Shown here piece after piece: positions 1 to 40,815 of a stretch of 64,000 nt of DNA. The DNA is taken from contig CM049309.1 of NCBI GenBank assembly GCA_026874595.1, positions 94,136,723 through 94,200,722 of the forward strand, given 5' to 3'. Under the pieces are notes generated by a model, which searched no databases, was not told where the DNA came from, and saw only the letters and a list, made by a program, of their open reading frames with translations. Every line of letters starts with the position of its first letter. Position 1 is the stretch's first letter. The DNA comes from Sipunculus nudus (Eukaryota > Annelida > Sipuncula > Golfingiida > Sipunculidae). The translations under genes were made by a program, and so were the position numbers.

Positions 1-686
1 ATTCCATGCTCAGCTGGGTTTTTTTTGTCAGACAGAAAGAGTATTGCTAATGTTTAGTTTAGCAATCCATTCGATTGGATTGAATCAAAGATTCAAATTA
101 GTGTGCTCCATTTAAATTTATCACTTTCATTAAAAAAATCATAAAAGAGAATTTATCCCTGCATCAAATTCTCAAATAATCTTTCTAATAGTTGTGAAAT
201 CTAGAAAATTAAGGGGTAACACTGGAGAGAAAAATGCATGTGCTTAAACTTTTTTATTAAAACATAATGAATGTGATAGTAAATCACCAAACTATTGATG
301 ATGTATGTATTGCAATATGAATATCTTTACCCTGAGGAATCATTTATATATAAATATATATTTCCACACATTTAAATAATGGCATTTGGCCATGAGGCTC
401 AGCTGTATCTGACATTCAGGCATGTTATATGTACCAGAACTACAGGTGGTATTATATTTTTAAAAAATAGAAAGGACTTTTGTTGTATGTCAGTCAATAC
501 CAGCAAATACTTTATTTTTAATTCGATCACATGATGATTACAGTTGTGAGTATGGCAATTAATCAATAGTCTCTTAAGTGATAAGAATGGTGAATAAAAG
601 TAATAAATAGAAATCCCCCTTCTGATGAATTCAAGCCTCCTCCATTCACTTATTCGGCCCATATCTCCAGGTTCATTTGTGAAAAG

Positions 687-745
687 GTGACTCTACTTTT
701 GTGAATATTCCTTATAGGTGACTCTACTTTTGTGAATATTCCTTG
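687..745 (+). repeat. Direct tandem duplication, 31-bp period
   Basis: GTGACTCTACTTTTGTGAAT occurs twice in tandem with a four-base spacer (ATAG). Two copies only; looks like a recent slippage or duplication event. Confidence 0.8.
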
Positions 746-2659
746 ATGATCATTGTGGATCCGGAACATGCTCCGGATAGACACCAAAAATCAATTGATT
801 CTTCATTTTGCCATTCTTGGAAGACCCTGAGAGTTTCATGAAATTCCATTCATGATTGCCTGAGTTATGTTACGAACAAACACACAAACACACAGACTGA
901 AATGAATGCATACCTCCTGGTGGAGGCAAAAAAACAAACCATAATTCATAATACAGTGCAGTCAAGTTTTTGGACTGTTTACTTTTACCTACTGATTCAA
1001 AGAAAATCTTCAAAAATCCAGTCACTAGTGCCAATACAGACTGTCAGCCATGTTACTGCTAGTGTTAGCCTTGACCTTCACTTCAGGCTTAGTATATTTT
1101 CTGGCTTTTTACCTTGGCTTCCATGTTTGTTAAGCCATACAGGTTCTGCCAGTAACATAAATGGAATAGGCCCTCCCCAGACAGCCACCTGATCAGTCTG
1201 ACTGTCCTCATAACAGCAGGACAGATAAAGAATTGATGATATTACACAGAGGGAGGGTGTCTGTAAGCCAACAGGTGTCAAGAGCTTCAGTTTATATGAA
1301 TTAAATTGGTTATTAAAATTAAAATTTATTTACCTAAAATTGTGAATCTTTTTTCATTCTTAAATTTTAAGTTATGAATTTTAAAATATTTATTATTCTT
1401 CATTTAGATTTTAATAGTTACAAATCTGATTCTATTACAGTTTAAATATATTTTTGACTTGCTACTCTTTATTTGATTATATTTTAGGAACTGCAATAAC
1501 TTTATTATTTATTCATTATATTTATTCCTATCTCAAACATTATTTTAGTTTACAAGTAGTCCATTTCCATTGACATTACATGACTGACATTTCATGCTTC
1601 TTAAGACAAAGATAGCTAATTAAAGTTTGTCATTTCACACATAAGAGACTATATTTAATGTTCTTAATATGAAATTACAATGTCACTTCAACTAATCTTT
1701 TTCACCTTTCCTGTGAGTCAGGATAATTTACTGTTAACATCACCAGTAATAAGATATAATTACACACCCCTAACAAGAACTTTAACCACAGAGACAACCC
1801 TTTCACATACATGTACCTTTAAAAATGTCTTTAATGTAGAATTGCACAATATGGTGAATAGGGGTGACAAAACAAGTAATGAAACCATTACAACAGTGTC
1901 AGCAAAACACAGGGCTCACTAGTGAAATAAATAGCCCTTGATATAGAAGGTTAATGACTTGCACTCATTTAACACAGTTGCCATGGTAACCATTCAGTCC
2001 CCTGTGGTATCTTGGCAGAGAGAAATATGTGGCTACAAGATAATGCTGGCTCTCTCAATATCAGGACAATAATGTATTGTAACAGAGTTTTTTGTCTCAT
2101 GAAAACCAGCATGAGGTTTGGCAGTAAGTTGTTTTGTGACCAAAGTAATGACATTGATACTCTCTATATTTTTACCACAATAAACCATTTTTAGCTCATT
2201 TAGAAGTCAGCTGAGATCCTGAGAAATCAGCCACTGCTTGCTGTCTGGCTGGCCAGCAACAGATTTGCCATATTTAAATCTGTTCAGACTGGACCTACTG
2301 ATTAAGTATGAAGACATCTATATTCAAAACCACTTGTAAAATTTTAGATTATGCCACTTTGATTTGTCTTATTTGATTAACAGAATTGTTAGCACTTAAA
2401 CACAAACTCAAGGAAATTTAAATGATTCAGCCAGAGAAGTCGGAGGTAACATAGTGACATATCCACACAAATTAACAGTTCTTGCATGATAGCTGTGAGT
2501 CTACAAACAATAAAATTAATGAAAATTAAATAATTTGTGAGAATCTTAAAAGGAAGGAATACCCTTTGGAACAAGGTATTTTTTTCTCTTGTCTTCTTGG
2601 TGAACAGAAGTCTTTTAGTATCATGATATCAAGACTGAAAATTTGGGTCAAAGTGGTTA

Positions 2660-2795
2660 AAAAATTTAATTTAGTTAATAAAACTGTCAACAACTGTCAC
2701 ATTCATTAGTCAATTTAGTAAATAAATCTTCCAACAACTGTCACATTAATCAGTCAGTTTAGTTAATAAATCTTTCTACAGAAGTCACATTCATG
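2660..2795 (+). repeat. Degenerate tandem repeat, about 3 copies of roughly 47-50 bp
   Basis: The motif TTAGT(T)AATAAA..CT..CAACAACTGTCACATT is repeated with substitutions. Copies are diverged, so the array is old. Confidence 0.6.
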
Positions 2796-3030
2796 ATATA
2801 AGACCCTGATTCCATTCAGACATCATCTGTTCCTTCTTGTCACAATTTAAGCTGGATTAACACTACAATGTTTTGACTGACGTTTTCCGACGTTTGGGCA
2901 AATGTCTAGCCCTGCTGGTAAAAGTTTAAGTAAGTTAATGTTAGTTGGCTAAAGGTAGAGAACACCGTAGTCATTGAAAGTTTTCGAGTTTCTGAAAATT
3001 TGCTGACATTTGGAAATAAACATAGCTGGA

Positions 3031-3687
3031 AGTTGTGCTCCGTCTGTAAACGATCCTGAGCGCTAAGTGGGTTAAGTTTTACAGATCCTGCCCCAGTTGA
3101 GCTCCGTCTGTAAACGATCCTGAGCTCTAAGTTGGTTAAGTTTTACAGATCCTGCCCCAGTTGAGCTCCGTTTGTAAACGATCCTGAGCGCTAAGTGGGT
3201 TAAGTTTTACAGATCCTGCCCCAGTTGTGCTCCGTCTGTAAACGATCCTGAGCTCTAAGTTGGTTAAGTTTTACAGATCCTGCCCCAGTTGAGCTCCGTT
3301 TGTAAACGATCCTGAGCGCTAAGTGGGTTAAGTTTTACAGATCCTGCCCCAGTTGTGCTCCGTCTGTAAACTATCCTGAGCTCTAAGTTGGTTAAGTTTT
3401 ACAGATCCTGCCCCAGTTGAGCTCCGTCTGTAAACTATCCTGAGCGCTAAGTGGGTTAAGTTTTACAGATCCTGCCCCAGTTGTGCTCCGTCTGTAAACT
3501 ATCCTGAGCTCTAAGTTGGTTAAGTTTTACAGATCCTGCCCCAGTTGAGCTCCGTTTGTAAACGATCCTGAGCGCTAAGTGGGTTAAGTTTTACAGATCC
3601 TGCCCCAGTTGAGCTCCGTTTGTAAACGATCCTGAGCGCTAAGTGGGTTAAGTTTTACAGATCCTGCCCCAGTTGAGCTCCGTTGGT
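3031..3687 (+). repeat. Minisatellite, 64-bp unit, about 10 copies
   Basis: The unit runs from GAGCTCCGTCTGTAAACGAT through TTAAGTTTTACAGATCCTGC to CCCAGTT. Copies are nearly identical. Two variants largely alternate: GAGCGCTAAGTGGG and GAGCTCTAAGTTGG. This indicates amplification of a 128-bp dimer. The last two copies are both of the first type. No coding role is supported. Confidence 0.95.
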
Positions 3688-4407
3688 GAACATCGGCATT
3701 AATGTTAGGCAAAACAACAACAAACAAAAACTGACAAAATGTACACCCAGAAGGGATATGTGTACACTTCAAAACCTCAAGAATGTCAGGAAGACAGTCC
3801 ACAAACAGTCAGCTTTTTATATGAGTATCGCCTGACGCTGACCTCAGCTGACCTCAGGCTGTGCTGAGTGTTCCTTTGCCTGAGTTTCCAGGTCAGCAAC
3901 CTCTGCACATACACCAGGTCTAAGATGGGAAAATTTTGCCTTGTTAATAAGAATTAATGCAACGCTAGCAAACAATGCCGAAACAAGACGCTAGGAAATG
4001 TTTTTAAAAGTGGATATGCCTTGGGCCCAAAACGTTCATAGCGCAAAAATGTAATTTCCCCATTGTTTGGGCTCATTTCTCTGACTTTTCATAGGCAGGT
4101 ACACACATTTGTAGTGTGAAAACACCTTTATTATAACATCAGTTTGTCAAGGGAAATTAGACCTTTTATAACTACTTAAGAAAGATATCTCAACACTTTC
4201 TGCAATAATTGTATAATTAGACATACATTTGACATGGCACTTTAATTAAAACACAGGAATATCATGAGGCCCCTCCTGTCCTACCAGTAAATTGTATGAC
4301 ATTACCAGACAAGGTTGAAGAGATAATTGACTTCAGAGTAGGCTAATATAGATAATTGATAGATAATTTTGAAACAATAAGACTTTCTTCTCTCATAATT
4401 TTTTCAC

Positions 4408-4468
<61 letters not shown>

Positions 4469-4590
4469 CATTCAGTAAGGTTGATGAGGTAAATTAATGT
4501 GACTTTCTCTTGTCATAAAAATGTTAAATATATGATGGTTAGACAAGGTTGATGAGATAGATTAATGTGATGTTCTCCTCTCCTTGGCAG
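3688..4590. other. Unique non-coding DNA ending in a 3' splice site
   Basis: Contains no recognisable gene. The last 20 bases form a pyrimidine-rich tract ending TCCTTGGCAG, the acceptor of the exon at 4591. A (TA)n microsatellite lies at 4411-4462. Confidence 0.6.
4411..4462. repeat. (TA)n microsatellite
   Basis: About 25 uninterrupted TA dinucleotides. Simple-sequence tract, likely length-polymorphic. Confidence 0.95.
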
Positions 4591-4815
4591 TGGTGAGAGC
4601 ATCTCCTCGCAAGGGGTTGAGATGCCGACTAACAAGGCAGGGAAGCCCGCCATTCATGTGACATTCTCAGATAATAACATAGAACACACTCTGGCTTCTT
4701 CAACGGAGCCCCTTGCTCACTCTCCTCCTTCTCAAAGTCCTGCCATATCACCCAGTCCATCCAGCTCCTCCTGCGACAGACATCCCATCATAAAGACCAG
4801 GCCAAGGTCACAAAG
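4591..4815 (+). CDS. Internal coding exon of an unidentified Ser/Pro-rich protein (partial gene)
   Basis: The segment is bounded by a good acceptor (TTCTCCTCTCCTTGGCAG, ending at 4590) and a consensus donor (CAAAG then GTGAGT, from 4816). One frame is open throughout: one base, 74 codons, two bases, so both flanking introns are phase 2 and the exon is a multiple of three. The peptide starts GESISSQGVEMPTNKAGK and continues PAIHVTFSDNN. It then becomes a low-complexity Ser/Pro stretch (SPPSQSPAISPSPSSSSC) and ends in a basic tail (IIKTRPRSQ). This composition suggests a disordered linker with SP phosphorylation sites rather than a folded domain. I do not recognise the family. GC content is clearly higher than in the flanks, as expected for an exon. 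Upstream exons are not visible here and probably lie outside the window. Candidate downstream partners in the same phase are at 57650-57739. The in-frame ATG at 4622 need not be a start. Confidence 0.75.
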
Positions 4816-5965
4816 GTGAGTCAGTGCATTTACTGCGGGACTGCTGGTAACGTTGCCTGATTACCCTGACCTGTGCTATGCATGTGTTGAGGAGATCCCG
4901 GTTCTGTTCACCCTTGGATGGTTTTATTTTCCACACTCCAAAGTTTGATGTTATTTGTCTCTAGTTTATAATATTGTGCATTACAGCATGGAGTTTGGGA
5001 TTTTACTAGTATTGTAGTGTCCTCTTCATAGTCTTTGATTGTGTATTTGTTTGTCCTTGTTATCCACCATTTAAAATAACCATCTTGTTTTTCTTTTTTT
5101 TTATAAATCTTTGAGAAACAGTGGAAGAAGTCAAGTGTACCATACATGTATCATGTGATTATAGGGGTCTTGTCAGATATTCTGATGGCATCTTTAACTT
5201 CCAGGCAGTCTTTGGAAAAGATCAGATTCATAACTGGGTTATCTCTATAAGGTGATTTGTATATTGTACCTTGGGGATTATACACAGTGTGGTAAATAAA
5301 CTACCTCTGTATCATCTGGTCTTAATGGTTACCGATATTAATTTCACATTTAAAATGGCTGTAAGGAAAGTAATAACATAGAAATGGGCAAACTTCAAGG
5401 TATGAAGGTAATTCTCCACGTGTATCAAGATTGGCAGTTGAGCATCATGACCGACAGGTCACTTGTGTCATGTGTGACTAACTTATCACCCGCAGTATGT
5501 GTTTAGATACCCTGCTCTTTTTAAACGAAAGTTCCTACTGTGTCAGCTAGTTTCCTTGATGTGTGGTTCCACTGTGATATTAGCTGAATGAAGAGTCCAT
5601 GTTTGTGGGATCTTGTTGCTACCATCTGAGATCACAGTCAAAATTAACATTCAGTGTTTTTGATCAAATGTTCATTAATGTCCAATCCATTTGGTCATGT
5701 GAAACCAGATATATTTTTATGTTTTAGACTTATTGAACAATTGTATGGTTATTTCTGATATGAAGTGAATGTTATCAGGTATCAGATGAATAAAAATCAC
5801 TAAAGAAAAAGTGTCATAACAACAGACTTGATTCACAGAAATCCAATTTTACAGGCCTTTCAGGGTGGAGTACACTATATTATAAATAGCCATGTAAATA
5901 CACCTTATTGATATTATATTATACATAGCCATGTAAATACATCTTGTTGATATTATATCATACAG
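4816..5965. other. Probable intron, unique AT-rich DNA
   Basis: Starts with the GTGAGT donor of the preceding exon. Contains no further splice-flanked open segment that I can support. A two-copy repeat lies at its end. Confidence 0.5.
5869..5965 (+). repeat. Two-copy direct repeat, about 44-bp period
   Basis: AGCCATGTAAATACA followed by CTTRTTGATATTATAT occurs twice next to the LTR-like segment. It may be a local duplication unrelated to that element. Confidence 0.65.
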
Positions 5966-6660
5966 TGTTACAGGTGTTCTTTTTATTGTGTGGCACGGGT
6001 GTAACTCATGTTGTTGCACTCTTGCCTGGCCGCTTGATATATTCTATGTTTAATCCGTACCGGTTGAACTCTTGTTGTCCTGCTGGCTTGGTCGTGAGTC
6101 ACATGTACACCATGGTGTGTGGAGACACGCAGCACTGTTTTTCTAGATAATTCCTGAAATGCGTGTTTACTGTGCGAGATCTTATAGACTGTTTGAGAAG
6201 TGGAAAATTCCTGGCTTGAGGTGTGAAGGTATATAAGGGGCTGTGTTTAAGCAAGAGGGCAGAGAGCAGCAGAGCAGATTCCAGCGGACGCAGAAGCGTG
6301 TGTCAGATTCTAAGACCTTATCCGACAAATGCGGCAATTATACATTTTCAAAGACTTTCTCCTGGATTTTATGCATTTGGACTTCAGTTTACTTTCTGGG
6401 TTGTTGCAAGAACTTTCCACTGGACTGTCATTCTCAGAGAGTTTACATACAAAGGACTTATCATTGTGATGGTGTTTGCATCCAGGTACTGTACCATTAT
6501 CTTTCTGTGTGATTGTATTGACTTGTTGCTATACCGCTGTTTTATTGTATGATTGTATTGATTTGGTGTATTGTATTGTTTGGGTTGTTTTAAGAATAAA
6601 TTATAGTTAATTGTTAACAAAAAACCACTGACTTCTTTATTCATTCCCCTTGACATTTCA
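5966..6660 (+). mobile_element. Putative solo LTR of an LTR retrotransposon (boundaries approximate)
   Basis: The segment is laid out like an LTR. It begins TGTTACAGGTGTTC. A TATA box (TATATAAGG) lies at about 6229-6237, followed by a purine-rich leader with repeated GAGCAGCAGAGCAG-like sequence. A polyadenylation signal AATAAA is at about 6595, with a short downstream tail ending near TTGACATTTCA. It is more GC-rich and less repetitive than its surroundings. No primer-binding site, gag or pol follows, so it would be a solo LTR. I could not define a convincing 4-5 bp target duplication, so the ends are uncertain. It could instead be a TATA promoter of a short cellular transcript. The 89-109 codon frames inside show no recognised domain. 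Confidence 0.45.
6229..6237 (+). promoter_or_regulatory. TATA box within the LTR-like segment
   Basis: TATATAAGG followed by a GC-richer leader about 30 bases downstream. This is the expected geometry for RNA polymerase II initiation near 6260-6270. Confidence 0.45.
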
Positions 6661-8015
6661 CGCTGCCTAGTGTTCAGAATCTGATTTTTTTTATCTCTGG
6701 TACAGAGTTTTGACAGAACTGAAGATTTGTTATAAATCCAGGTATTATGACTTCTGTGCATGTACATACTGTCAGCATAATAATTTGTGAACATGTGAAA
6801 ATGTAACTACTTAAATTGTTAATTAATTTTAAAACATTGAGCAATCTCTGGTATAATGATTTAAACCAATCTCTGGTATAATGAATTTATCAGCACAACG
6901 CTTGCATCTGGTAGCCATTAGTTAGTGTGGGTAGTGTACTGTTTGGTAGTGACCTAAGACTGGTCACAGGTGCTGGCCAGTCATCCTATATGTACAGAGG
7001 TCTGATAAACAGATGGTGTGGCAGATTAATTAGCAGGTATCTCAGGTGAGTCAGCTGTGTATTCTACCTGGTACCACACTTATTGTTCAGGTTTACTTGT
7101 GTACAGCTGTCCTGCCTCACAGGGGTCACCACCCACTGTGGATGGTTAAAGCAACTAGTGACTAGAACAGCATGGGGCCAGGCGGGGAACATAAACATGG
7201 TATTAGCAGAAGCTAAGTGAACTCCACACTGTTTAGTAACTGGTAGATGGCTTGATACCAGATCACTAAACACAATCATCTTAGTCACCATAACAGTAAA
7301 GTATGTATCGTCTCCTACCACCATGACCACTCTTACTAATAAAAATATTATTTTTGATGGAAGACTGAAGTTCTCTAGGCCATCACATCAAAATCTAGTA
7401 CCTCTGTGTTATTGAAAGCTCACTAACACAGTCACTTAATACTTTTCTATACATGTATTTTCCTTTAAAAGATCTCTGGATCTGGATTTTGTTACCTTAA
7501 TTAATATCAAAATGTAAAGAAATTCAATACATTTGTCAGTTCTGATTATGATCGAATTCTGATATTTGAATGTTTAAGGCTGAGGAAATACTGAGGGCCT
7601 GTATTTTTCTTTGCTGGCCTGTGAAATCCTTTTTCTACAGGCCCAGGTGGCCTGAAAAATTTTAAACTAATTTCTACCCCTGAATAATATGACATGTACA
7701 TTTCTGGTGGATGTAAATCTGATTATTCATTGATTCCTCACAGAACTTGTTCACATTCCATGATAGGTTATTCCTCATCATGCAGCAAGGTATCATGTTT
7801 TTCACTTGGTTTATTACTTAGTTGGTTTGTTTGTCCGTTAGCAACTCAAATCCATAAGTTATGTACACATTTTGATGAAATTTTGCAGAGGGGTTGGCTT
7901 CCATTAAATATTGGAACTAATCAGGATCAATTTTATATGTTTTAATTTTAAATGTTATTTCCATTGTTAGGGGTTATTTAATTACCGATAGCCCAGATAA
8001 GAACCAGAGCTATTC
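6661..8015. other. Unique AT-rich non-coding DNA
   Basis: No supported exon. A 27-bp period duplication (CAATCTCTGGTATAATGA) is present at about 6841-6886. A donor-like CAGGTGAGTC occurs near 7042 but no open exon with an acceptor precedes it. Confidence 0.5.
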
Positions 8016-8877
8016 ATTGTATCAGCCAAAACAGAGTTTGCGGATACTATGTTTTCAGCCCCCTGCCGCCGCGTAGGTGTCCGGAGAACTCCTCCGTAAC
8101 CTCTGGGCGGAATTTTACGAAACCTAGGATTATGTTCGGGTCACATGTGAACTGCTGCGCACCGATTTTGTTTTGACCTCTGAACTCTGACCTTTCCTCT
8201 GCGCTCTGCGTCCGTTTGTGCGTCTGTTTCCACACATAAACCCACATATCTCGGATACCGTTTGACGGATCAGGAAATTTTTTTTGCACAAATATAGCCC
8301 TTGGAGAGCTTTATAACATACACAAAAAAATGGTGGCGCCACCTGCAAAATCACTCATATCTCTGCAGTGATTTGACTAATTCACCTGAAATTTGGCATG
8401 CGTATACATCCTGGATAGCTTTCCTGATTTTATGACAGGTGGCGCCACCTACATTTACGTTTACGCTGCAGACATCCAAGCTCATATCTCGGGAACTGTT
8501 TGACTGATTGGGCCAAAATTTTACATGTGTATAGATCTCACATAGCTCTTTATCATACCCAAAAATGATGGCACCACCTGCAGCCACTTTTCCACAGCTC
8601 CTGTCTGTTTGTCTGCCATGTGATAAAATCACTCATAAACATGTAGTGGTTTGACTTATCTGCCTCAAATTTTGCATATGTATACAACTTGGATGGTTTT
8701 CTGGATTTTGTGGTAGGTGGCGCAACCTACATACACCATTTTGCTGCAGACATCCATGCTAATATGCAACACTTCACTCTATTTCCCCTTGCCACTCAAT
8801 CCATGCCTCACTTCACCCGTTCCACTCTGATTTAGGCGGATACACATAGTCGCTTGTCGACTACCCGTATTCTAGTT
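8016..8877 (+). mobile_element. Hairpin-ended non-autonomous element (Helentron-like family A), copy 1
   Basis: The element opens with a short hairpin (TATCAGCCAAAACAG paired with GTTTGCGGATA). It continues with a GCCGCCGCGTAGGTGTCCGG segment, the shared GGTCACATGTGAACTGCTGC block, and roughly two internal units centred on GGTGGCGCCACCT. It ends in a second hairpin (GATACACATAGTCG with CGACTACCCGTATTC) followed by CTAG. The same order recurs at 51254-52154. Hairpin-ended elements with internal tandem cores resemble the molluscan pearl/Helitron-related non-autonomous elements. That classification is inference, because no transposase or helicase gene is present. Confidence 0.75.
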
Positions 8878-13532: not shown

Positions 13533-14712
13533 GGATTATGAACCGGTCACATGTGAACTGCTGCACCCTCATTTTTGGTTAACCTCTGACCTTTCCTCTC
13601 TGCCCAGTGTCCATTTGTGCGTCTATTTCCCTACATAAACCCACATATCTTGGGAACCGAAATGTAGCCTTGGATAGATTTATAACATACACTAAAATTG
13701 GTGGCGCATCCTGCAACCATTTTTGCACAGCGTTCATCTGTTCATCTGCCTTAGGATAAAATTACTCATATCTCTGCATAGGTTGGACTTATCCACCTGA
13801 AATTTTGCATGTGTATACATCCTTGATAGCTTCCTTTATTTTATGACAGGTGGCGCCACGTGCAATCAATTTTGCACAGTGTCCGTCTGTTTGTCTGCAG
13901 TGGGATAAAATCACTCATTTCTCGGCAGTGGTTTGACATATCTGCCTAAAATTTTGCAGGTTTATACATCTTGGATAGCTTTCTGGATTTTGTGGCAGCT
14001 GGCATCACCTACATTTATGTTTTCGCTGCAGACATCCAGGTTTATATCTCAGGACTGGTTTGCTGTATCCTCTTGAAATTTTGCATGTGTATAGATCTTG
14101 CATAGCTCTTGATCATACACAAAACTGGTGGCGCCACCTGCAACCATTTTTGCACAGCTTCCATCTGTTTATCTGCCGTGGGCTAAAATCACTCATATCT
14201 CAGTAGTGGTTTGACTTATCTGCCTTAAATTTTGCATGTTTATACATCTTTGATAGCTTTCTCGATTTTGTGGCAGGTGGCGCCACCTACATTTATGTAT
14301 ATGCTGCAGACATTCAGGCTTATATTTCAGGACTGGTTTGACATATCCCCATGAAATTTTGCTTGTGTATGGATCTCACATAGCTCTTAATCATACACAA
14401 AAGTGGTGGTGCCACCTGCCACCATTTCGCACAGCGTTCGTCTGTTTGTCTTCTGTGTGCTAAAATCACTCATATCTCAGTAGTGGTTTGACTTGTCTGC
14501 CTAATATTTTGCATGTTTATACATCTTGGACTGCTTTCTGAATCATGTGGTAGGTGGCGCAACCTATATACACATTTCAGCTGCAGACATCCAGGCTATT
14601 ATGCAACACACCTCACTCTATTTCCCCTTGCCACTCAATCCATACCTCACTTCACCGTCCCACTCTGATTTTGGCAGATACAAGTAGTCGCTTGTTGACT
14701 ACCAGATTCTAG
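13533..14712 (+). mobile_element. Hairpin-ended element family A, copy 2 (5'-truncated)
   Basis: Begins at the internal CGGGATTATG/GGTCACATGTGAACTGCTG block and lacks the 5' hairpin and GCC-rich segment. It carries about four internal units with GGTGGCGCCACCT palindromes, then the 3' block with CACTCTATTTCCCCTTGCCA. The 3' hairpin is AGTCGCTTGTTGACTAC, followed by CTAG. Subfamily bases (CTGCACCCTCATTTTTGG) are shared with the copy at 38937 but not with those at 8016 and 51254. Confidence 0.8.
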
Positions 14713-15012: not shown

Positions 15013-17550
15013 CATACCACTGGTCCCTCTGCCAGGGAGATGACAGCACTTTCCCAGTATCTCTAAGACATACCACTGGTCCCTCCGCCAGGAAGAGGAC
15101 TGCACTCTCCCAGTATCTCTCAGACATACCACTGGTCCCTCTCCCTGGAAGAGGACATCATTCTCCCAGTATCACTCAGACATACCACTGGTCCCACTGT
15201 CAGGGAGAGGACAGCACTCTCTAAGGGACAGGACTCTCCCAGTATCTCTCATACATACCACTGGTCCCTCTGCCAGGGAGATTACAGCAATCTTCCTGTA
15301 TCTCTCAGACATACCACTGGTCCCTCTGCCAGGGAGAGGACACCACTCTCCCAGTATCTCTCAGACATACCACTGGTCCCTCTGCCTGGAAGAGGACAGC
15401 ACTCTCCCTGTATCTCTCAGAAATACCACTGGTCCCTCTGCCAGGGAGAGGACAGCACCCTCTCTGTATCTCTCAGACATTACACTGGTCCCTCTGCCAG
15501 GAAGAGGACAGCACCCTCCCAGTATCTCTCAAACATACCACTGGTCCCTCTGCCAGGAAGAGGACAGCACTCTCCCAGTATCTCTCAGACATACCACTGG
15601 TCCCTCTGCCAGGGAGACGACAGCACTCTCCCTGTATCTCTCAGACATACCACTGGTCCCTCTCCCTGGAAGAGGACACCCTTCTCCCAGTATCTCTCAG
15701 ACATACCACTGGTCCCACTTTCAGGGAGAGGACAGCACTCTCCCAGGGACAGGACTCTCCCAGTATCTCTCAGACATACCACTGGTCCCTCTGCCAGGAA
15801 GAGGAAAGCACTATCCCAGTATCTCTCAGACATACCACTGGTCCCTCTGCCAGGGAGATGACAGCACTTTCCCAGTATCTCTCAGACATACCCCGGGTCC
15901 TCTGCCGGGAAGAGGACAGCACTCTCCCAGTATCTCTCAGACATACCACTGGTCCCTCTGCCAGGGAGATGACAGCACTCTCCCAGTATCTCTCAGACAT
16001 ACCACTGGTCCCTCTGCCAGGAAGAGGACAGCACTCTCCCAGTATCTCTCAGACATACCACTGGTCCCTCTGCCAGGAAGAGGAAAGCACTTTCCCAGTA
16101 TCTCTCAGACATACCACTGGTCCCTCTGCCAGGGAGATGACAGCACTTTCCCAGTATCTCTCAGACATACCACTGGTCCCTCTGCCAGGAAGAGGACAGC
16201 ACTCTCCCAGTATCTCTCAGACATACCACTGGTCCCTCTGCCAGGGAGATGACAGCACTCTCCCAGTATCTCTCAGACATACCACTGGTCTCCCTGCCAG
16301 GAAGAGGACAGCACTCTCCCAGTATCTCTCAGACATACCACTGGTCCCTCTGCCAGGGAGAGGACAGCACTCTCCCAGTATCTCTCAGACATACCACTGG
16401 TCCCTCTGCCAGGAAGAGGACAGCACTCTCCCAGTATCTCTCAGATATACCACTGGTCCTTCTGCCAGGGAGATGACAGCACTCTCCAAGTATCTCTCAG
16501 ACATACCACTGGTCCCTCTGCCAGGAAGAGGACAGCACTCTCCCAGTATCTCTCAGACATACCACTGGTCCCTCTGTCAGGGTGATGACAGCACTCTCCC
16601 AGTATCTCTCAGACATACCACTGGTCCCTCTGCCAGGAAGAGGAGAGCACTCTCCTAGTATCTCTCAGACATACCACTGGTCCCTCTGCCTGGAAGAGGA
16701 CAGCACTCTCCAAGTATCTCTCAGACATACCACTGGTCCCTCTGCCAGGGAGATGACAGGACTCTCCCAGTATATCTCAGACATACCACTGGTCCCTCTC
16801 CCAGGAAGAGGACACCATTCTCCCAGTATCTCTTAGACATACCACTGGTCCCTCTGCCAGGGAGAGGACAGCACTCTCCCAGTATCTCTCAGACATACCA
16901 CTGGTATCATTTAGACATACCACTGGTCCCTCTGCCAGGAAGAGGTCAGCACAATCCCTGTATCTCTCAGACATACCACTGGTCCCTCTGCCAGGAAGAG
17001 GACAGCACTCTCCCTGTATCGCTCAGACATACCACTGGTCCCTCTGCCAGGAAGAGGACAGCACTCTCCCTGTATCTCTCTGACATACCACTGGTCCCTC
17101 TCCCTGGAAGAGGACATCATTCTCCCAGTATCACTCAGACATACCACTGGTCCCACTGTCAGGGAGAGGACAGCACTCTTGCAGGGACAGAACTCTCCCA
17201 GTATCTCTCATACATACTACTGGTCCCTCTGCCAGGGAGATTACAGCAATCTCCCTGTATCTCTCAGACATACCACTGGTCCCTCTGCCAGGGAGAGGAC
17301 ACCACTCTCCCAGTATCTCTCAGACATACCACTGGTCCCTCTGCCTGGAAGAGGACAGCACTCTCCCTGTATCTCTCAGACATACCACTGGTCCCTCTGC
17401 CAGGGAGAAGACAGCACCCTCTCTGTATCTCTCAGACATTACACTGGTCCCTCTGCCAGGAAGAGGACAGCACCCTCCAAGTATCTCTCAAACATACCAC
17501 TGGTCCCTCTGCCAGGAAGAGGACAGCACTCTCCCATTATCTCTCAGACA
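15013..17550 (+). repeat. Minisatellite, 56-bp unit, left array (about 45 copies)
   Basis: The unit is AGACATACCACTGGTCCCTC, TGCCAGGAAGAGGACAGCAC, TCTCCCAGTATCTCTC. Variants (GGGAGATGAC, GGAAGAGGAC, CCCTGGAAGAGGACAYC, insertion of GGGACAGGACTC) recur in the same order, showing higher-order structure. All three frames are mostly stop-free, so 266-codon frames arise without being genes. The array ends in CTCTCAGACA, where the TIR element begins. Confidence 0.97.
17543..17550 (+). repeat. Target site duplication, left copy (CTCAGACA)
   Basis: Last 8 bases of the 56-bp array before the element. Repeated at 21227-21234, where the array resumes. Confidence 0.8.
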
Positions 17551-18240
17551 GGTAATCGTGCAATATAACGGACCCATATTTCAAGGTCTCACAAAAAAGT
17601 GTGACCACATTTCAATGAAAAAACTGTTTCATGTAAAAGTTGACGATCCGGCGCATCTAATGATACATTATTTTTGTATGTTTGATATAAATATATTTTG
17701 CTACAAACTGTCGAAAAAGGGTAGTTTGCTGAAAATACCAAAAATGACGTAGTGTCAAAGACGTTCTCAGTCGACGTCATGAATCCACAGTACTGTATAC
17801 ATGCATACCATGTTAAACAAAAGGATGATGTCTAACAAAAATTACAGTCAATATATCTTTTTATGCATAGATAGAGAGACAATTTTACCTCTAAATATCC
17901 ATATTTCCCAAGATTTAATAAAAGTTGACGTCGTGCCGCCAAAAACATAAACATGCAACTGTCGTCTGTGAATGTATTCGACTTGTCACGTTAACTCTTG
18001 CTCTATTCAGCTTTGTCTCTATGTACGTTTTATATTTCAAATAAATATAAATTGTGTAATAAACAGTCATTTTTGTGGACAGAGTATAAAGACTACTTTT
18101 TAGACATGTCATTTATCTTATTTATTTTTTTTGTCCTGTTAGACTACTTCATGTAAGGACAATCAGATGGGAACATCCCCTCCCCATGAGTAACAGACCG
18201 GTAGCCCTTAAAATCGAGACGAACGCGGGAGAAACACGGG
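17551..18240 (+). repeat. Left terminal inverted repeat arm
   Basis: Matches 20760-21226 in inverse orientation. Matched blocks include TGCAATATAACGGACCCAT, GGCGCATCTAATGATA, TTTTGCTACAAACTGTC, AAAAAGGGTAGTTTGC, GTGTCAAAGACGTTCT and GTCATGAATCCACAGTA. It also shows weaker matches out to the CGGGAGAAACAC block. It has about 200 bp more than the right arm. Confidence 0.85.
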
Positions 18241-18257
18241 ACCATGTTGGGCATATC

Positions 18258-18406
18258 ATCCATATGTGACCACATTTTATAATATTGATGTATATAATAC
18301 AAACTTATATGGCTGGTCAAATAAAATGTGGTCACGCCTTATTTTTCTTAATATTTATTGGTAATAAATGTGGTCACGCCAAATGTGACCATATTTTATA
18401 ATATTT

Positions 18407-18482
<76 letters not shown>

Positions 18483-18729
18483 CAAACTTATATGGCCGGT
18501 CAAAATGTGGTCACACCTTATTTTTATTAATATTTACTGTAAAAAATGTGGTCACACCATGTGACCACATTTTATAATATATTAAATATAAATATATAAT
18601 ATATATATATAATATTGATGTATATAATACAACCTTATATGGCTAGTCAAATAAAATATGGTCACACCTTATTTTTGTTAATATTTATTGGTAATAAATG
18701 TGGTCACACTGTGTGACCACATTTTATAA

Positions 18730-18767
<38 letters not shown>

Positions 18768-19099
18768 CAAACTTATATGGCTGGTCAAAGTGTGGTCACA
18801 CCTTATTTTTGTTAATATTTATTGGTAATAAATGTGGTCACGCCATATGTGACCATATTTTATAATATTATATATATTATACAAACATATATGGCAGTTC
18901 TAATAAAATGTGGTCACACCTTATTTTTGTCAATATTTATTTTAAAAATGTGGTCACACCATATGTGACCACATTCTAAAAATTATCTATTTATTACAAA
19001 CTTATATGGCTTGTCAAATAAAATGTGGTCACACCTAATTTTTGTTAATATTTATTGTAAAAAATGTGGTCACACCATGTGACCACATTTAAATTATAT

Positions 19100-19148
<49 letters not shown>

Positions 19149-19166
19149 CAAACTTATATGGCTTAT

Positions 19167-19230
<64 letters not shown>

Positions 19231-19450
19231 AACTTATAAGGCTGGTCAAATAAAATGTGGTCACACCTTATTTTTGTCAATATTCTTTGGTGAAAAATGT
19301 GGTCACACCATATGTGACCACATTTTATAATATTCTATATATAATACAAACTTATATTTCTGGTAAAGTAAAATGTGGTCACAACTTATTTTTGGCAAAT
19401 TTTATTGTAAAAAATGTATTCACACCATGTGACCACATTTTATAATATAT

Positions 19451-19503
<53 letters not shown>

Positions 19504-20353
19504 CAAACTTATATGGCTTGTCAAATAAAATGTGGTCACACCTTATTTTTGTTAATATTTATTGTTAAAAAATGTGGTCACACTGATGTGACCACATTTT
19601 ATAATATTCTATTGATAATACAAATTTATATGGCTGGTCAAATAAAATGTGGTCATACCTTACTTTTGTTAATAATTATTGGTAAAAAATGTGGTCACAC
19701 CTTATTTTTGTCAATATTTATTGTGAAAAATGTGGTCACACCATATGTGACAACATTTTATAAAATTATATATATAATACAAACTGATTAGGCTGGTCAA
19801 ATAAAATGTGGTCACACCTTATTTTTGTCAATATTCTTTGGTGAAAAATGTGGTCACACCATATGTGACCACATTTTATAATATTCTATATATAATACAA
19901 ACTTATATGGCTGGTCAAATAAAATGTGGTCACAACTTATTTTTTTATTGGTAAAAATTAATGTCACACCTATGAGACCACATTTTATAATATTCTATTT
20001 ATAATACAAACTTATATGGCTGGTCAAATAAAATGTGGTCACACCTTATTTTTGTCAATATTTATTGTGAAAAATGTGGTCACTCCATATGTGACATTTT
20101 ATAATATTATATATATAATACAAACTTATTAGGCTGGTCAAATAAAATGTGGTCACACCTTATTTTTGTCAATATTCTTTGGAGAAAAATGTGGTCACAC
20201 CATATGTGATAAAATTTTATAATATTCTATATATAATACAAACTTATATGGCTGGTCAAGTAAAATGTAGTAACAACTTATTTTTGGCAAAATTTATTTT
20301 TAAAAAATGTGGTCACACCATATGTGACCACATTTTATAATATTCTATATATA

Positions 20354-20417
<64 letters not shown>

Positions 20418-20700
20418 ATAATACATAACTTATATGGCTGGTCAAATAAAATGTGTTCACAACTTATTTTTTATTGGTAAAAAATATGGTCTCTTGGTTT
20501 GAAGAAAAATTCAGAATAAAATTTAGAAAAAAATAAGGGATATGATGATGTAAGAATATATTTAAATGTGGTCACAACACCTTTTTTAACTATTTCTAAC
20601 TACTTTATGTGGTCACACAATTTATAAAAAAGAGATCACACCTTAATAATGTCATTCATTCTAACTAATAAATGTTGTCACACTCAATAATTATTTTATT
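18258..20700 (+). repeat. Internal hairpin-unit tandem array of the foldback-like element (about 17 units)
   Basis: Each unit of about 115-190 bp contains ATACAAACTTATATGGCTGG, TCAAATAAAATGTGGTCACA and TTATTTTTGTTAATATTTAT. It then has a hairpin of AAAATGTGGTCAC facing GTGACCACATTTT across 4-8 bases. Length variation comes from (AT)n tracts at about 18415-18482, 18730-18765, 19103-19145, 19175-19228, 19453-19500 and 20357-20420. Open frames of 60-125 codons are by-products. Confidence 0.92.
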
Positions 20701-20759
20701 AAAAATAAGGATATTATTATGTTAGTATAACAAAAAATGTTGTAACATAATGCGGACGA

Positions 20760-21226
20760 ATGTGTTTCTCCCGTGTCTCTCTTGATTTTAAGGGCATGAC
20801 TTGTCACGTGACACTCAACATTTGTTTACGTTCTGGCGGCAGGGCGTCGTCACCTTGAACGTACATCAAGTGAAATGTGGATAAAAAGAGGTAAAAAAGT
20901 ATAAACATACATGGGTAATATTATATATTGAATGTAAATTTTAAAAGACATCATCTTAATGTTTAACATGGTATATATGTATATTACTGTGGATTCATGA
21001 CGACGGCTCAGAACGTCTTTGACACGACGTCATTTTGGGTATTTTCGGCAAACTACCCTTTTTGGACAGTTTGTAGCAAAATAAATATATAAATAACATA
21101 CAAAAATATGATATCATTAGATGCGCCAGATCGTCAACTTTATCATGCAAAAAAAATTTTAGTGAAATGTGGTCACACTTATTTGTGAGAGAGAGTAACA
21201 TGGGTCCGTTATATTGCACAATTACC
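20760..21226 (-). repeat. Right terminal inverted repeat arm
   Basis: Inverse of the left arm. Ends ATGGGTCCGTTATATTGCAC followed by AATTACC at the element boundary. Preserves the CTACCCTTTTTGGACAGTTT and GCCAGATCGTCAACTTTA blocks with scattered differences from the left arm. Confidence 0.85.
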
Positions 21227-22974
21227 CTCAGACATACCACTGGTCCCTCTGCCCGGGAGATGACAGCACTCTCCCTGTATCTCTCAGACATACCACTGGT
21301 CCCTCTCCCTGGAAGAGGACACCTTTCTCCCAGTATCTCTCAGACATACCACTGGTCCCACTGTCAGGAAGAGGACAGCACTCTTCCAGGGACAGGACTC
21401 TTCCAGTATCTCTCAGACATACCACTGGTCCCTCTGCCAGGAAGAGGTCAGCACTCTCCCTGTATCTCTCAGACATACCACTGGTCCCTCTGCCAGGAAG
21501 AGGACAGCACTCTCCCTGTATCGCTCAGACATACCACTGGTCCCTCTGCCAGGAAGAGGACAGCACTCTCCCTGTATCTCTCTGACATACCACTGGTCCC
21601 ACTCTCGGAAGAGGACATCATTCTCCCAGTATCACTCAGACATACCACTGGTCCCACTGTCAGGGAGAGGACAGCACTCTCCCAGGGACAGGACTCTCCC
21701 AGTATCTCTCATACATACTACTGGTCCCTCTGCCAGGGAGATTACAGCAATATCCCTGTATCTCTCAGACATACCACTGGTCCCTCTGCCAGGGAGAGGA
21801 CACCACTCTCCCAGTATCTCTCAGACATACCACTGGTCCCTCTGCCTTGAAGAGGACAGCACTCTCCCTGTATCTCTCAGACATACCACTGGTCCCTCTG
21901 CCAGGAAGAGGAAAGCACTCTCCCAGTATCTCTCAGACATACCACTGGTCCCTCTGCCAGGGAGATGACAGCACTTTCCCAGTATCTCTAAGACATACCA
22001 CTGGTCCCTCCGCCAGGAAGAGGACTGCACTCTCCCAGTATCTCTCAGACATACCACTGGTCCCTCTCCCTGGAAGAGGACATCATTCTCCCAGTATCAC
22101 TCAGACATACCACTGGTCCCACTGTCAGGGAGAGGACAGCACTCTCGAAGGGACAGGACTCTCCCAGTATCTCTCATACATACCACTGGTCCCTCTGCCA
22201 GGGAGATTACAGCAATCTCCCTGTATCTCTCAGACATACCACTGGTCCCTCTGCCAGGGAGAGGACACCACTCTCCCAGTATCTCTCAGACATACCACTG
22301 GTTCCTCTGCCTTGAAGAGGACAGCACTCTCCCTGTATCTCTCAGACATACCACTGGTCCCTCTGCCAGGGAGAGGACAGCACCCTCTCTGTATCTCTCA
22401 GACATTACACTGGTCCCTCTGCCAGGAAGAGGACAGCACCCTCCCAGTATCTCTCAAACATACCACTGGTCCCTCTGCCAGGAAGAGGACAGCACTCTCC
22501 CAGTATCTCTCAGACATACCACTGGTCCCTCTGCCAGGGAGACAACAGCACTCTCCCTGTATCTCTCAGACATACCACTGGTCCCTCTCCCTGGAAGAGG
22601 ACACCCTTCTCCCAGTATCTCTCAGACATACCACTGGTCCCACTGTCAGGGAGAGGACAGCACTCTCCCAGGGACAGGACTCTTCCAGTATCTCTCAGAC
22701 ATACCACTGGTCCCTCTGCCAGGAAGAGGAAAGCACTATCCCAGTATCTCTCAGACATACCACTGGTCCCTCTGCCAGGGAGATGACAGCACTTTCCCAG
22801 TATCTCTCAGACATACCACTGGTCCCTCTGCCAGGAAGAGGACAGCACTCTCCCAGTATCTCTCAGACATACCACTGGTCCCTCTGCCAGGGAGATGACA
22901 GCACTCTCCCAGTATCTCTCAGACATACCACTGGTCCCTCTGCCAGGAAGAGGACAGCACTCTCCCAGTATCTC
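21227..22974 (+). repeat. Minisatellite, 56-bp unit, right array (about 31 copies)
   Basis: Same unit as 15013-17550. It resumes with the duplicated CTCAGACA at 21227-21234. The stretch about 21961-22800 reproduces the variant order of about 15036-15880 at a constant offset of 6,925 bp. The 431-codon open frame across it is repeat-derived. Confidence 0.97.
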
Positions 22975-29042: not shown

Positions 29043-29374
29043 TTTAGCTCAGCTGACTGTAAGTCATCTGAGCTATAGCGATCACTCTTTGTCCGTCGTC
29101 TGTCCGGCCATCCGACCGTCTGTCCGTTAACAAGGCACAAATCATAACCACTGGAATTGGAATCTTCTAATTTTACATCCAGAGAGGTCCATGAAAAATC
29201 TCCTTGGAAACCTGGAATTAGGTCTCTGCTACCCATATTCTACAAAGTATGGGGCTCCGAATTACCCCCCAGAATAATGAAAAATTTGATACAAAGGCTC
29301 AAATATCTAAACAACTAATGCATTGTTCACAATGATTCTGTGCATGGATATTGATCATAGAGTGTTTCATCAGA

Positions 29375-29386
29375 TTCTGCAGACTG
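29375..29386 (+). repeat. SINE target site duplication, left copy (TTCTGCAGACTG)
   Basis: Identical to 29810-29821 on the other side of the SINE. The joined sequence restores the family B unit found in the neighbouring copies. Confidence 0.9.
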
Positions 29387-29809
29387 ACTGGCTTCTGTGG
29401 CTCAGGGGTAGAGTGCAGGACTCAAAGCTGGGAGATCATGAGTTCGAATCTCAGCCGTGGCGGTGAGATTTTTCACGGTTGGCCCCCACCCAGGGTGAGC
29501 GCTCTGCAGGCTTAATGGGAAGGCCGTGCCCAACAGCCGTGTTTCACTCACAAACGAGTGCACCTTTTGGGGGCTCCTCGATGGTATGACCCAGCAATAG
29601 GGATGATTACACACCCAGGGCCCACAGGTGCAATAGTTACTGGGCCTGGTTAACGCCAGGATATAAATGAGAGGAAGCGTGTGATACTGCCCTGTCACGT
29701 AGTCAGAAACCAGAATGGAATTCTGCAGATGTACATATATGTAGTTAAGTAAGCATTAAAAAATGGCAGCAGTTACCTCCACCATAAAAAATTAAAAAAA
29801 AAAAAAAGT
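29387..29809 (+). mobile_element. tRNA-derived SINE, complete insertion (423 bp)
   Basis: The head looks like a tRNA: an A-box-like TGGCTCAGGGGTAGAGTGC and a B-box-like GAGTTCGAATCTC about 30 bases downstream, which are internal RNA polymerase III promoter elements. A GC-rich body follows (CACGGTTGGCCCCCACCCAG, CGAGTGCACCTTTTGGGGGC). The tail is A-rich, ending in an A-run at 29793-29807. A 12-bp target site duplication flanks it, consistent with LINE-mediated retrotransposition. Not a functional tRNA gene, since the acceptor stem does not pair and the body continues. Confidence 0.88.
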
Positions 29810-29821
29810 TTCTGCAGACTG
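29810..29821 (+). repeat. SINE target site duplication, right copy
   Basis: TTCTGCAGACTG directly follows the A-rich tail. Confidence 0.9.
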
Positions 29822-31198
29822 GTTGCGCCACCTGTATTTTTTCGATTTTTTACCATTTTTTTTCTCTTTTTTGGAGACCATAAAAGATGCCGTCATCTGT
29901 TAAGAGGGCACAAAACTTAACCGCTGGACCTGGAATCTTCTCACTTTACATCCAGAGAGGTATATGAAAAGTCTCCTTGTAAACATGGAATTAGGTCTCA
30001 GATACCCATATTCTTCAAGCTATGGGGCTCTGAAGTACCCCCCAGAATAATGAAAAATTTGATACAAAAGCTCAAATATCTGAACAACTACTGCATTGAT
30101 CACCATGATTATTTGCATGGATATTGATCATTGGGTGTTACATCAGTTTTTGCAGAATGGTGGCACCACCTATATTTTTTTATTTTTATGGTTTTTTTTC
30201 TTGTTTTTTTTTTAGACCTTAAAAGATGCCGTCGTCTGTTAACAGGGAATGCTGGACATGGAATCTTCAAACTTAAAATCCAGGGAGGTCCATGAAAAGT
30301 CTCCTTGGAAACCTGAAATTAGGTCTCTGTCACCCATATTGTCCGAGTTATAGGGCTCAGAAGTACCCCCCAGAATAACTAAAAATTTGATACAAAAGCT
30401 CTGTTATCTGTACAACTAGTGCATCGATGGGCATTATTCTTTGCATGCATATGCATCATGGAGTGTTTCATCAGTTCCTGCAGACTGGTGGTGCCACCTG
30501 GACTTCTTTGAATTTTTACGCATTTTTATCTTTATTTTTGAGACCTTCAAAGATGTGGTAGTCTGTTAACAGGGCACAAATCATAACTATTTGACCTGGA
30601 ATCTTCTTTCTTGACATCCTGGGAGGTCCATAAAAACTCCATGGAAACCTGAAATTAGGTCTCTGTTACCCATATCCTCTGAGCTATGGGGCTTAGAAGT
30701 ACCTCCCAGAATAACTAAAGATTTGATACAAAAGCTCTAGTATCTGAACAATTATTGCATTGATCACCCTGATTCTTTGCATGCATATTCATCATGGAGT
30801 GTTTCATCAGTTCTTGTGGACTTGTGGCACCACCTTAATTTTTTTTTTTAATTTTAACACCTTTTTTTTCTGTATTTTTTAGACCTTTAGAAGTGCAGTT
30901 GTCTGTTAACAGGGCACAAATTGTAACCATTGGTCCTAGAATCTTCTTCAAACTTTACACCCAGGGAGGTCTGTGAAAATATCCTTGGAGACTTCACATT
31001 AGGTCTCTGTTGCCCATATTCTCTGAGCTATTGGGCTTATTTATGTAAGCACCCCCCCCCCCCCCAAAAAAAAAATTGCCAGATTCCTCATGAAAGGCTG
31101 GTTGGATTGTCATCAAATTTGTTGTGCTTATGGGTTTTGATGAACTTAAGCTAATATGCATGAACAATGATGCCACCTACATTATCTTACTAGTAAAA

Positions 31199-38936: not shown

Positions 38937-40815
38937 GTCACATGTGAACTGCTGCACCCTCATTTTTGGTTGACCTCTGACCTTTCCTCGCTGCCCAGCG
39001 TCCATTTGTGCGTCTGTTGCCACACATAAACCCGCATATCTCGGGAACCGCTTGACCGATCAGGCTAAAAATTTTGCACAAATGTAGCCCTTTGATAGCT
39101 TTATAACACACTAAAAATGGTGGCGCCACATGCAACCATTTTTGCACAGTGTCCATCTGTTCATCTACCTTCTGATAATATCACTCATATCTCAGCAGTG
39201 GTTTGACTTTTCCACCTGAAATTTTGCAGGTTTATACATCCTGGACAGCTTTCTCGATTTTATGACAGGTGGCGCCACCTACATTCAGGTTTACTCTGCA
39301 GACATCCAACCTCATATCTCAGGCACTGTTTGACCTATTGGGCCAAAAATTTACATGTGTATAGATCTCACATAGCTCTTCATCATAGGCAAAACTGGTG
39401 GCGCCACCTGCAACCATTTATGCACAGCGTCCATCTGTTCATCTGCCTTGGGATAAAATCACTCATATCTCAGCAGTGGTTTGACTTATCCACCTGAAAA
39501 TTTGCAGGTTTATACATCCTGTACAGCTTTCTTGATTTATGACAGGTGGCGCCACCTACATTCAGGTTTAGGCTGCAGACATCTGAGCACATATCTCGGG
39601 AACTGTTTGACTGATTGGGCCAAAATTTTGCATGTGTATAGATCTCACATAGCTCTTTATCATAGGCAAAACTGGTGGCGCCACCTGTTACCATTTAAGC
39701 ACAGTGTCCATCTGTTCATCTGCCTTGGGATAAAATCACTCATATCTCAGCAGTGGTTTGACTTATCCACCTGAAATTTTGCAGGTTTATACATCCTGGA
39801 CAGCTTTCTCAATTTTATGACAGGTGGCGCTACATACATTCAGGTTTACCCTGCAGACATCTACGCTCATATCTCAGGAACCGTTTGACCGATTGGGCCA
39901 AAATTTTGCATGTGTATAGATCTCCGTAGCATTTCGTCATAGGCAAAACTGGTGGCACCACCTGCTACCATTTTTGCACAGCGTCCATCTGTTCATCTGC
40001 CTTGGGATAAAATCACTCATATCTTGGCAATGGTTTGACTTATCCACCTGAAATTTTGTAGGTTTATACATCCTTGACAGCTTTCTCGATTTTATGACAG
40101 GTGGCGCCACCTATATTTTCATTTCTGCTGCAGACATCCAAGCTCATAAATATATCTCAGGAACCATTTGACAGATTGGGCAAAAATTTTGCATGTTTAT
40201 AGATCTCGCATAGCGCTTTATCATACGCAAAACTGGTGGTGCCACCTTCAACCATTTTTGCACAGCGTCTGTCTGTTTGTTTGCCGTAGGATAAAATCAC
40301 TTATATCTCGGCAGTTGTTTGACATACCTGCCTAAAATTTTGCAAGTTTATTCATCTTGGATAGCTTTCTGGATTTTGTTGCAGGTGGCGCCACCTACAT
40401 TTATGTATACGCTGCAGACATTCAGGCTTATATCTCAGGACTGGTTTGACATATCCCCCTGAAATTTTGCGTGTATAGATCTCACATAGCTCTTAATCAT
40501 ACACAAAATATGTGGCGCCACCTTCCACCAGTTTTGTGCAGCATCCTTCAGTTTGTCTGCTGTGGGATAAAATCACTCATTTACAAGTAGTGGTTTGTAC
40601 TATCTGCCTGAAATTTTGCATATGTATACATCTTGGACAGCTTTCTGGATTTTGTGGTAGGTGGCGCAACCTTAATACACATTTCAGCTGCAGACATCCA
40701 GGCTATAATGCAACACACCTCACTCTATTTTCCCTTGCCACTCAATCCATGCCTCACTTCACCCGTCCCACTCTGATTTTGGCGGATACACGTAGTCGCT
40801 TGTTGACTACTCGTA
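38937..40815 (+). mobile_element. Hairpin-ended element family A, copy 3 (expanded, about six internal units)
   Basis: Starts at the GGTCACATGTGAACTGCTGC block (5' hairpin absent, as in copy 2). It contains about six tandem units of 276-284 bp, marked by TCACTCATATCTC at 39181, 39459, 39736, 40013, 40297 and 40573. Each unit is two diverged half-units of about 140 bp, each ending in a GGTGGCGCCACC-type palindrome. The 3' end has the usual GATACACGTAGTCGCTTGTT hairpin with GACTACTCGTATTC and CTAG. Confidence 0.85.

Follow-up and report, generated by a model that had tools for sequence, protein, structure and literature searches.

According to PMC8101967, Merlin transposons have terminal inverted repeats (TIRs) of 24-462 bp, 5'-GG termini and target-site duplications of 8-9 bp, and one of them, Sy.k_F2, holds a few internal tandem repeats (163 bp, 3-4 units). 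Three curated mollusc Merlins average 1,635 bp (PMC10294476). In Drosophila, the THAP domain of Galileo (P superfamily) protected positions +63 to +80 and also bound to other sites, within tandem repeats (PMC3688188). Tetris of Drosophila virilis, which its authors place in Mutator, is non-autonomous with long TIRs and 8-10 bp duplications; its 220-bp tandem repeats lie inside the arms and have 37 bp in common with the outer TIR, and PMC4079207 reports three structurally complete copies and no transposase. Bivalve Helitron/Helentron elements are mobile elements with a satellite-like core (PMC8268682). Here we describe a 3,676-bp element inserted in a minisatellite of the annelid Sipunculus nudus, within a stretch of 64,000 nucleotides (hereafter the window; assembly GCA_026874595.1, contig CM049309.1, positions 94,136,723 to 94,200,722). 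We read 40 copies of it, the window copy included, and conclude with high confidence that the element belongs to a young family of the Merlin superfamily (IS1595-like DDE), is non-autonomous and was probably moved by a transposase acting in trans.

The element agrees with Merlin, whose DDE transposases are related to IS1595 and IS1016, in terminal GG, TIRs of about 404 bp (within the 24-462 bp range), 8-bp duplications and a DDE_Tnp_IS1595 gene beside a family array and a family end. It differs from the mollusc Merlins in size, since the copies are 2.0-9.8 kb long (some with nested inserts) and carry a long internal satellite. With Galileo it has in common a proximal site in the TIR with extra copies in tandem repeats, but Galileo has its repeats within the arms and a THAP transposase. 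It resembles Tetris in being non-autonomous, in its long TIRs and 8-bp duplications and in tandem repeats that have sequence in common with the outer TIR, but in the window copy the repeats lie between the arms. Helitrons move by a rolling circle, whereas here there are long TIRs and 8-bp duplications.

The last base of the 56-bp host array before the break is 17550 and the first one after it 21227, exactly as a sequence-only reading had placed them, and the element occupies 17551-21226. It starts with GGTAATCGTGCAATATAACG, and the opposite end is an inverted copy with one C-to-T change. When the insert and one duplicate are taken out, the host minisatellite runs on in phase. The joined flanks match two other places of the array, which means that the insertion is clean and supplies the empty sites that the earlier reading had asked for. 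The features are as follows.

17543-17550, no strand: left target-site duplicate CTCAGACA, read directly; 8 bp are duplicated in 35/40 copies, this one included
17551-18238, plus strand: left (L-type) arm, made up of the TIR (about 17551-17954), a stretch found in L arms only and, at 18203-18238, an inner inverted block
17601-17609, plus strand: left-TIR copy of the subterminal motif GTGACCACA; 36/40 copies have the motif in their L TIR
18239-20756, no strand: core; besides 17 monomers of a 117-bp array (18295-20494) it holds TA microsatellites and degenerate copies of the motif
20757-21226, minus strand: right (R-type) arm, with an inner block at 20757-20798
21168-21176, minus strand: subterminal motif in the right TIR (TGTGGTCAC on the plus strand), present in the R TIR of 38/40 copies
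21227-21234, no strand: right target-site duplicate CTCAGACA, read directly
15442-15741, plus strand: empty site, a paralogous stretch of the host minisatellite; the joined flanks align over 300/300 columns at 97.3%
22367-22666: second paralogous empty site, likewise 300/300 columns at 97.3%

The arms pair at 17551-17802 with 20975-21226 (85%) and at 17796-17917 with 20862-20983 (74%), and no longer inverted repeat occurs in the window among pairs at most 8 kb apart. No frame of at least 150 amino acids (aa) lies wholly inside the window copy. The earlier description, of a DNA element that is non-autonomous and has long arms in inverted orientation, an 8-bp duplication and an internal array, is supported in the 40 copies. 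The term "foldback-like" fits loosely: foldback TIRs themselves hold tandem repeats, but the 17 monomers of the window copy sit between its arms. A dispersed repeat, made up of units around GGTGGCGCCACC, was also noticed in the window at 13700-14597, 29807-31037 and 39113-40704; one element copy (L018) has flanks that match copies of this repeat at 29190-30818.

A search of the same genome with the left arm (query 17543-18200) gave the window copy and 39 others at 95-98% identity among the best 40 of 407 candidates scored; 30/40 alignments start exactly with the element's first base, and eight more at most 4 bases ahead of it. The 19-bp end, with C or T at one position, has 107 genome matches, and the reversed-pattern control has none. 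Allowing at most 3 mismatches, 40-bp left-type ends matched 93 times, 40-bp right-type ends 84 times and the 48-bp right-arm core 122 times, with a control count of 0 in each case. Left and right ends form 65 pairs within 12 kb, spaced 910 to 9,836 bp apart (orientation was ignored in this count). The element is genuine mobile DNA, with closely similar sequence at a hundred or more genome places. Further end subfamilies, e.g. GGTAATCGTGCAAAATAACGGACCCATCTTACATGG and ...CAATACAACGG..., occur genome-wide at many identical places and may represent distinct bursts within the family.

The 40 copies read are that of the window, 19 of the first 20 fetched (L023 has no right end in its fetched stretch and was left out) and a second 20, chosen for having both 19-bp ends listed, a selection that favours intact copies. 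A perfect duplication of 8 bp flanks 35 of the 40, on 12 contigs; in these 35 the match never extends beyond 8 bp, and no copy has a 9-bp duplication. Two copies (L034, L047) have a duplicate with one mismatch and three (L009, L029, L037) have none. When left and right flanks were drawn from different copies, 0/1,560 pairs matched. Both the duplication CTCAGACA and the prediction of other copies with 8-bp duplications were in this way confirmed. The duplicated sequences show weak preferences (the first base is G in 12 of 19 examined), and among 35 flank joins compared with the stretches read, join-spanning alignments were found for 7 copies. GG stands at both ends in 37/40 copies and GGTAAT in 36/40.

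Each of the 40 copies has one L and one R arm. Arm exchange was rejected, because no L-L or R-R copy was among them, though the first 20 had been found through the L arm. The opposite arms are 80-82% alike over about 404 alignable bp, plus the short inner block, while arms of one type differ from their consensus by 1.5% on average for L (36/40 arms) and by 1.6% for R (36/40 arms); these means leave out four L and four R arms above 8% (indels or rearrangement; the orientation of L036). From the low divergence within each arm type and the high divergence between the types we conclude that the copies go back to the recent spread of a single master whose two arms differed.

To the earlier suggestion that no single superfamily fits cleanly and that the family may be undescribed, the answer is divided. 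Terminal GG and 8-bp duplications are hallmarks of Merlin, so the first part fails. Literature searches among open-licence PMC papers, which covered titles and the starts of abstracts besides the papers cited here, showed no Merlin family with such an array, and the family itself is therefore probably unnamed within a known superfamily.

We searched the genome for transposases of four classes: Merlin/IS1595 (150 matches, best 150 of 209 candidates scored), MULE (131, best 150 of 252), P (34; 70/70 scored) and KDZ (9; 12/12 scored). On contigs C1-C17 the 284 matches (110 Merlin, 131 MULE, 34 P and 9 KDZ) were compared with 177 end positions. Among these 284, the only match near an end and on its inner side is a Merlin one (C17:3211576), with 4.07 kb between it and the end, which is at 3215642; our estimate for such a placement by chance is about 0.07 for the Merlin matches and 0.18 for all 284. 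Another Merlin fragment (C10:65466928) is 7.9 kb outside an element.

The C17 frame (3211165-3212073, pieces L050 and L051) is open over 303 aa and matches PF12762 at E 7.7e-21. Its motifs QIDET at 140, WSDKFSTY at 204 and RIENVW at 240 were taken by eye as the DDE triad; Zn_Tnp_IS1595 gave no Pfam match up to E 10, and two CxxC pairs are visible at 32-58. The family array starts near C17:3209955 (L053) and ends 221 bp upstream of the frame (L050:1-344), and the family end lies 3.6 kb on the other side. The 293-bp arm at this end differs from L at 36/293 positions and from R at 39/293, L and R differing at 38/294; being about equidistant from both, it is as expected of an older sister lineage. 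The 8 bp beside it are GTAGCTCC. Of a transposase-coding copy between matching termini, which the earlier reading had suggested looking for, the Merlin gene, the array and the right end were located; the left end was not found.

The C17 transposase stands alone among the best 130 of 213 candidates: the next are short, partly broken pieces at 62-78% and one at 47%, and the remaining relatives are paralogs near 35% and below. A sequence search of the PDB returned 0 matches up to E 1. Between the gene and the end, piece L052 has an 84-aa frame on the opposite strand, open to the edge of the piece and without a Pfam match up to E 10; the C17 copy may carry a second, opposite-strand gene. As a separate observation, 40/150 IS1595-type matches lie on the small contigs C101-C138, mostly in frames of 317-355 aa, and these are probably contigs of a bacterial contaminant or symbiont in the assembly.

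DDE transposases act by cut-and-paste with staggered target cleavage. By analogy with this established knowledge, a transposase made elsewhere and acting in trans would bind the inverted ends, the element would be excised, and an 8-bp staggered cut at the target would leave the duplication. The C17 element, which has the sole full-length open transposase of the subfamily found, probably represents the source lineage; from the common ends and array we infer that this transposase moves these copies.

Several points weigh against placing the family in Merlin through the C17 gene. The C17 left end was not found near the frame in the whole lists of left-type and right-type ends or among the right-arm core matches listed, and in one further search the sole match there was the right arm of this copy itself. 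Of its duplication, therefore, the right side alone was read. Of the about 3 kb between frame and end, 300 bases (L052) were read, and they match 0/40 copies. The transposase region (L050:345-1701) is unmatched in all 40 copies, which means that these are not simple deletions of the C17 element. Merlin and MULE candidates were scored in part, as were those of the search with the C17 protein as query (130 of 213). The survey of the array covered element copies. A single-sequence AlphaFold model of the C17 transposase (pLDDT 39.8) was unusable and was not used.

These gaps leave some room for another or an unknown superfamily, hAT included, with the C17 Merlin gene as a chance neighbour or as part of a nested element with a similar array. 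The missing left end, the mostly unread 3 kb, the failure of L052 to match any copy and the place of hAT outside the search all speak for it. But the gene has the family array at a distance of 221 bp on one side and a family end on the other, terminal GG with 8 bp is a Merlin signature, and we consider this explanation unlikely. Termini of hAT elements usually begin with CA.

Still less probable is a Mutator-like (MULE) foldback element, as Tetris is in its authors' proposal and as Muta1 is. Long TIRs with 8-10 bp duplications are typical of MULEs, PMC5225508 gives subterminal tandem repeats in 10/12 long-TIR mosquito families, and MULE genes are plentiful in this genome, as counted above. However, 0/131 MULE matches lie within 15 kb of the 177 ends, and the duplications are 8 bp in 35/35. 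A MULE family with a 607-aa frame, of which 4.6 kb of one copy was read, is without such ends; it was rejected as partner, having no inverted repeat and no significant arm match. This family (L049, C10:17573200-17577800, with dozens of places of equal score) has seemingly spread recently, and a 344-aa frame on the opposite strand beside the MULE frame resembles a lectin-type protein by eye.

A P-superfamily element like Galileo, with a THAP transposase binding tandem sites, is very improbable: the likeness in site arrangement is there, but 0/34 P matches lie within 15 kb of an end. KDZ (Zisupton group) was likewise rejected, with 0/9 matches within 15 kb of ends. That nothing transposed, and that the duplication is a semblance produced in a repetitive target by recombination of the minisatellite or by an error of assembly, is next to impossible given perfect 8-bp duplications at the same boundaries in 35 copies on 12 contigs and none in the mismatched pairs, which also answers the caveat on array recombination made in the sequence-only reading.

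The long copies were considered as autonomous and rejected as well, since the stretches of L029, L030, L031, L032 and L046 that are unmatched in the window copy look like nested inserts. In the 39 other copies the longest stop-to-stop frame is 233 aa (L033), besides one of 971 aa in L029, which by eye resembles a retrotransposon gag-pol and was rejected as the transposase of the element. This frame lies in a 6.65-kb nested insert of L029 (C14:39849930-39859929, element offset 2131-8784). In L032 (C12:69561226-69568146), an inverted-repeat insert with ends CGGGAGGGTATAATTCGCTGATCAGCG... is nested in the right arm at offset about 408-3208 and has its own 8-bp duplicate ACAAATGT. Two element copies have a 640-bp sequence in common (L046 offset 882-1609, L031:3103-3742), with relatives in stretches L028, L023 and L014.

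The internal array is found in 40/40 copies, with a monomer of about 117 bp, 4-45 monomers per copy, and 684 monomers in 39 copies plus 20 in L036. It repeats GTGACCACA, the 9-bp motif which is also found about 50 bp inside both tips. Counted on either strand, there are 8-101 per copy and none in 200 base shuffles, and in the window 40/41 exact matches fall within the element. Each monomer has three motifs in fixed order and spacing, most commonly minus, 41, minus, 16, plus, 60, which makes 117. Motif columns vary less than the rest of the monomer (3.9% vs 6.4%), a difference which we do not count as selection because shared monomer variants dominate.

By analogy with Galileo and Tetris, we put forward the hypothesis that the array motifs are additional transposase-binding sites. 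Our tentative proposal, which we hold as possible rather than probable, is that the satellite is an amplified field of binding sites that would draw the scarce transposase of a single intact source onto non-autonomous copies, and would grow and spread by aiding their transposition. Judged from its sequence, the motif could also be bound by a host factor: TGTGGTCACACC (e.g. window 20148-20159) resembles RUNX (TGTGGT) and T-box (TCACACC) half-sites.

A satellite-bearing, long-armed element of a type usually filed under "foldback" or Mutator is thus placed, with the confidence given above, in Merlin, and a copy-rich non-autonomous family is linked to one intact transposase. Should the array indeed be a field of binding sites, it would offer a testable explanation for the formation of satellites by transposons, and a route by which a satellite may spread through the genome.

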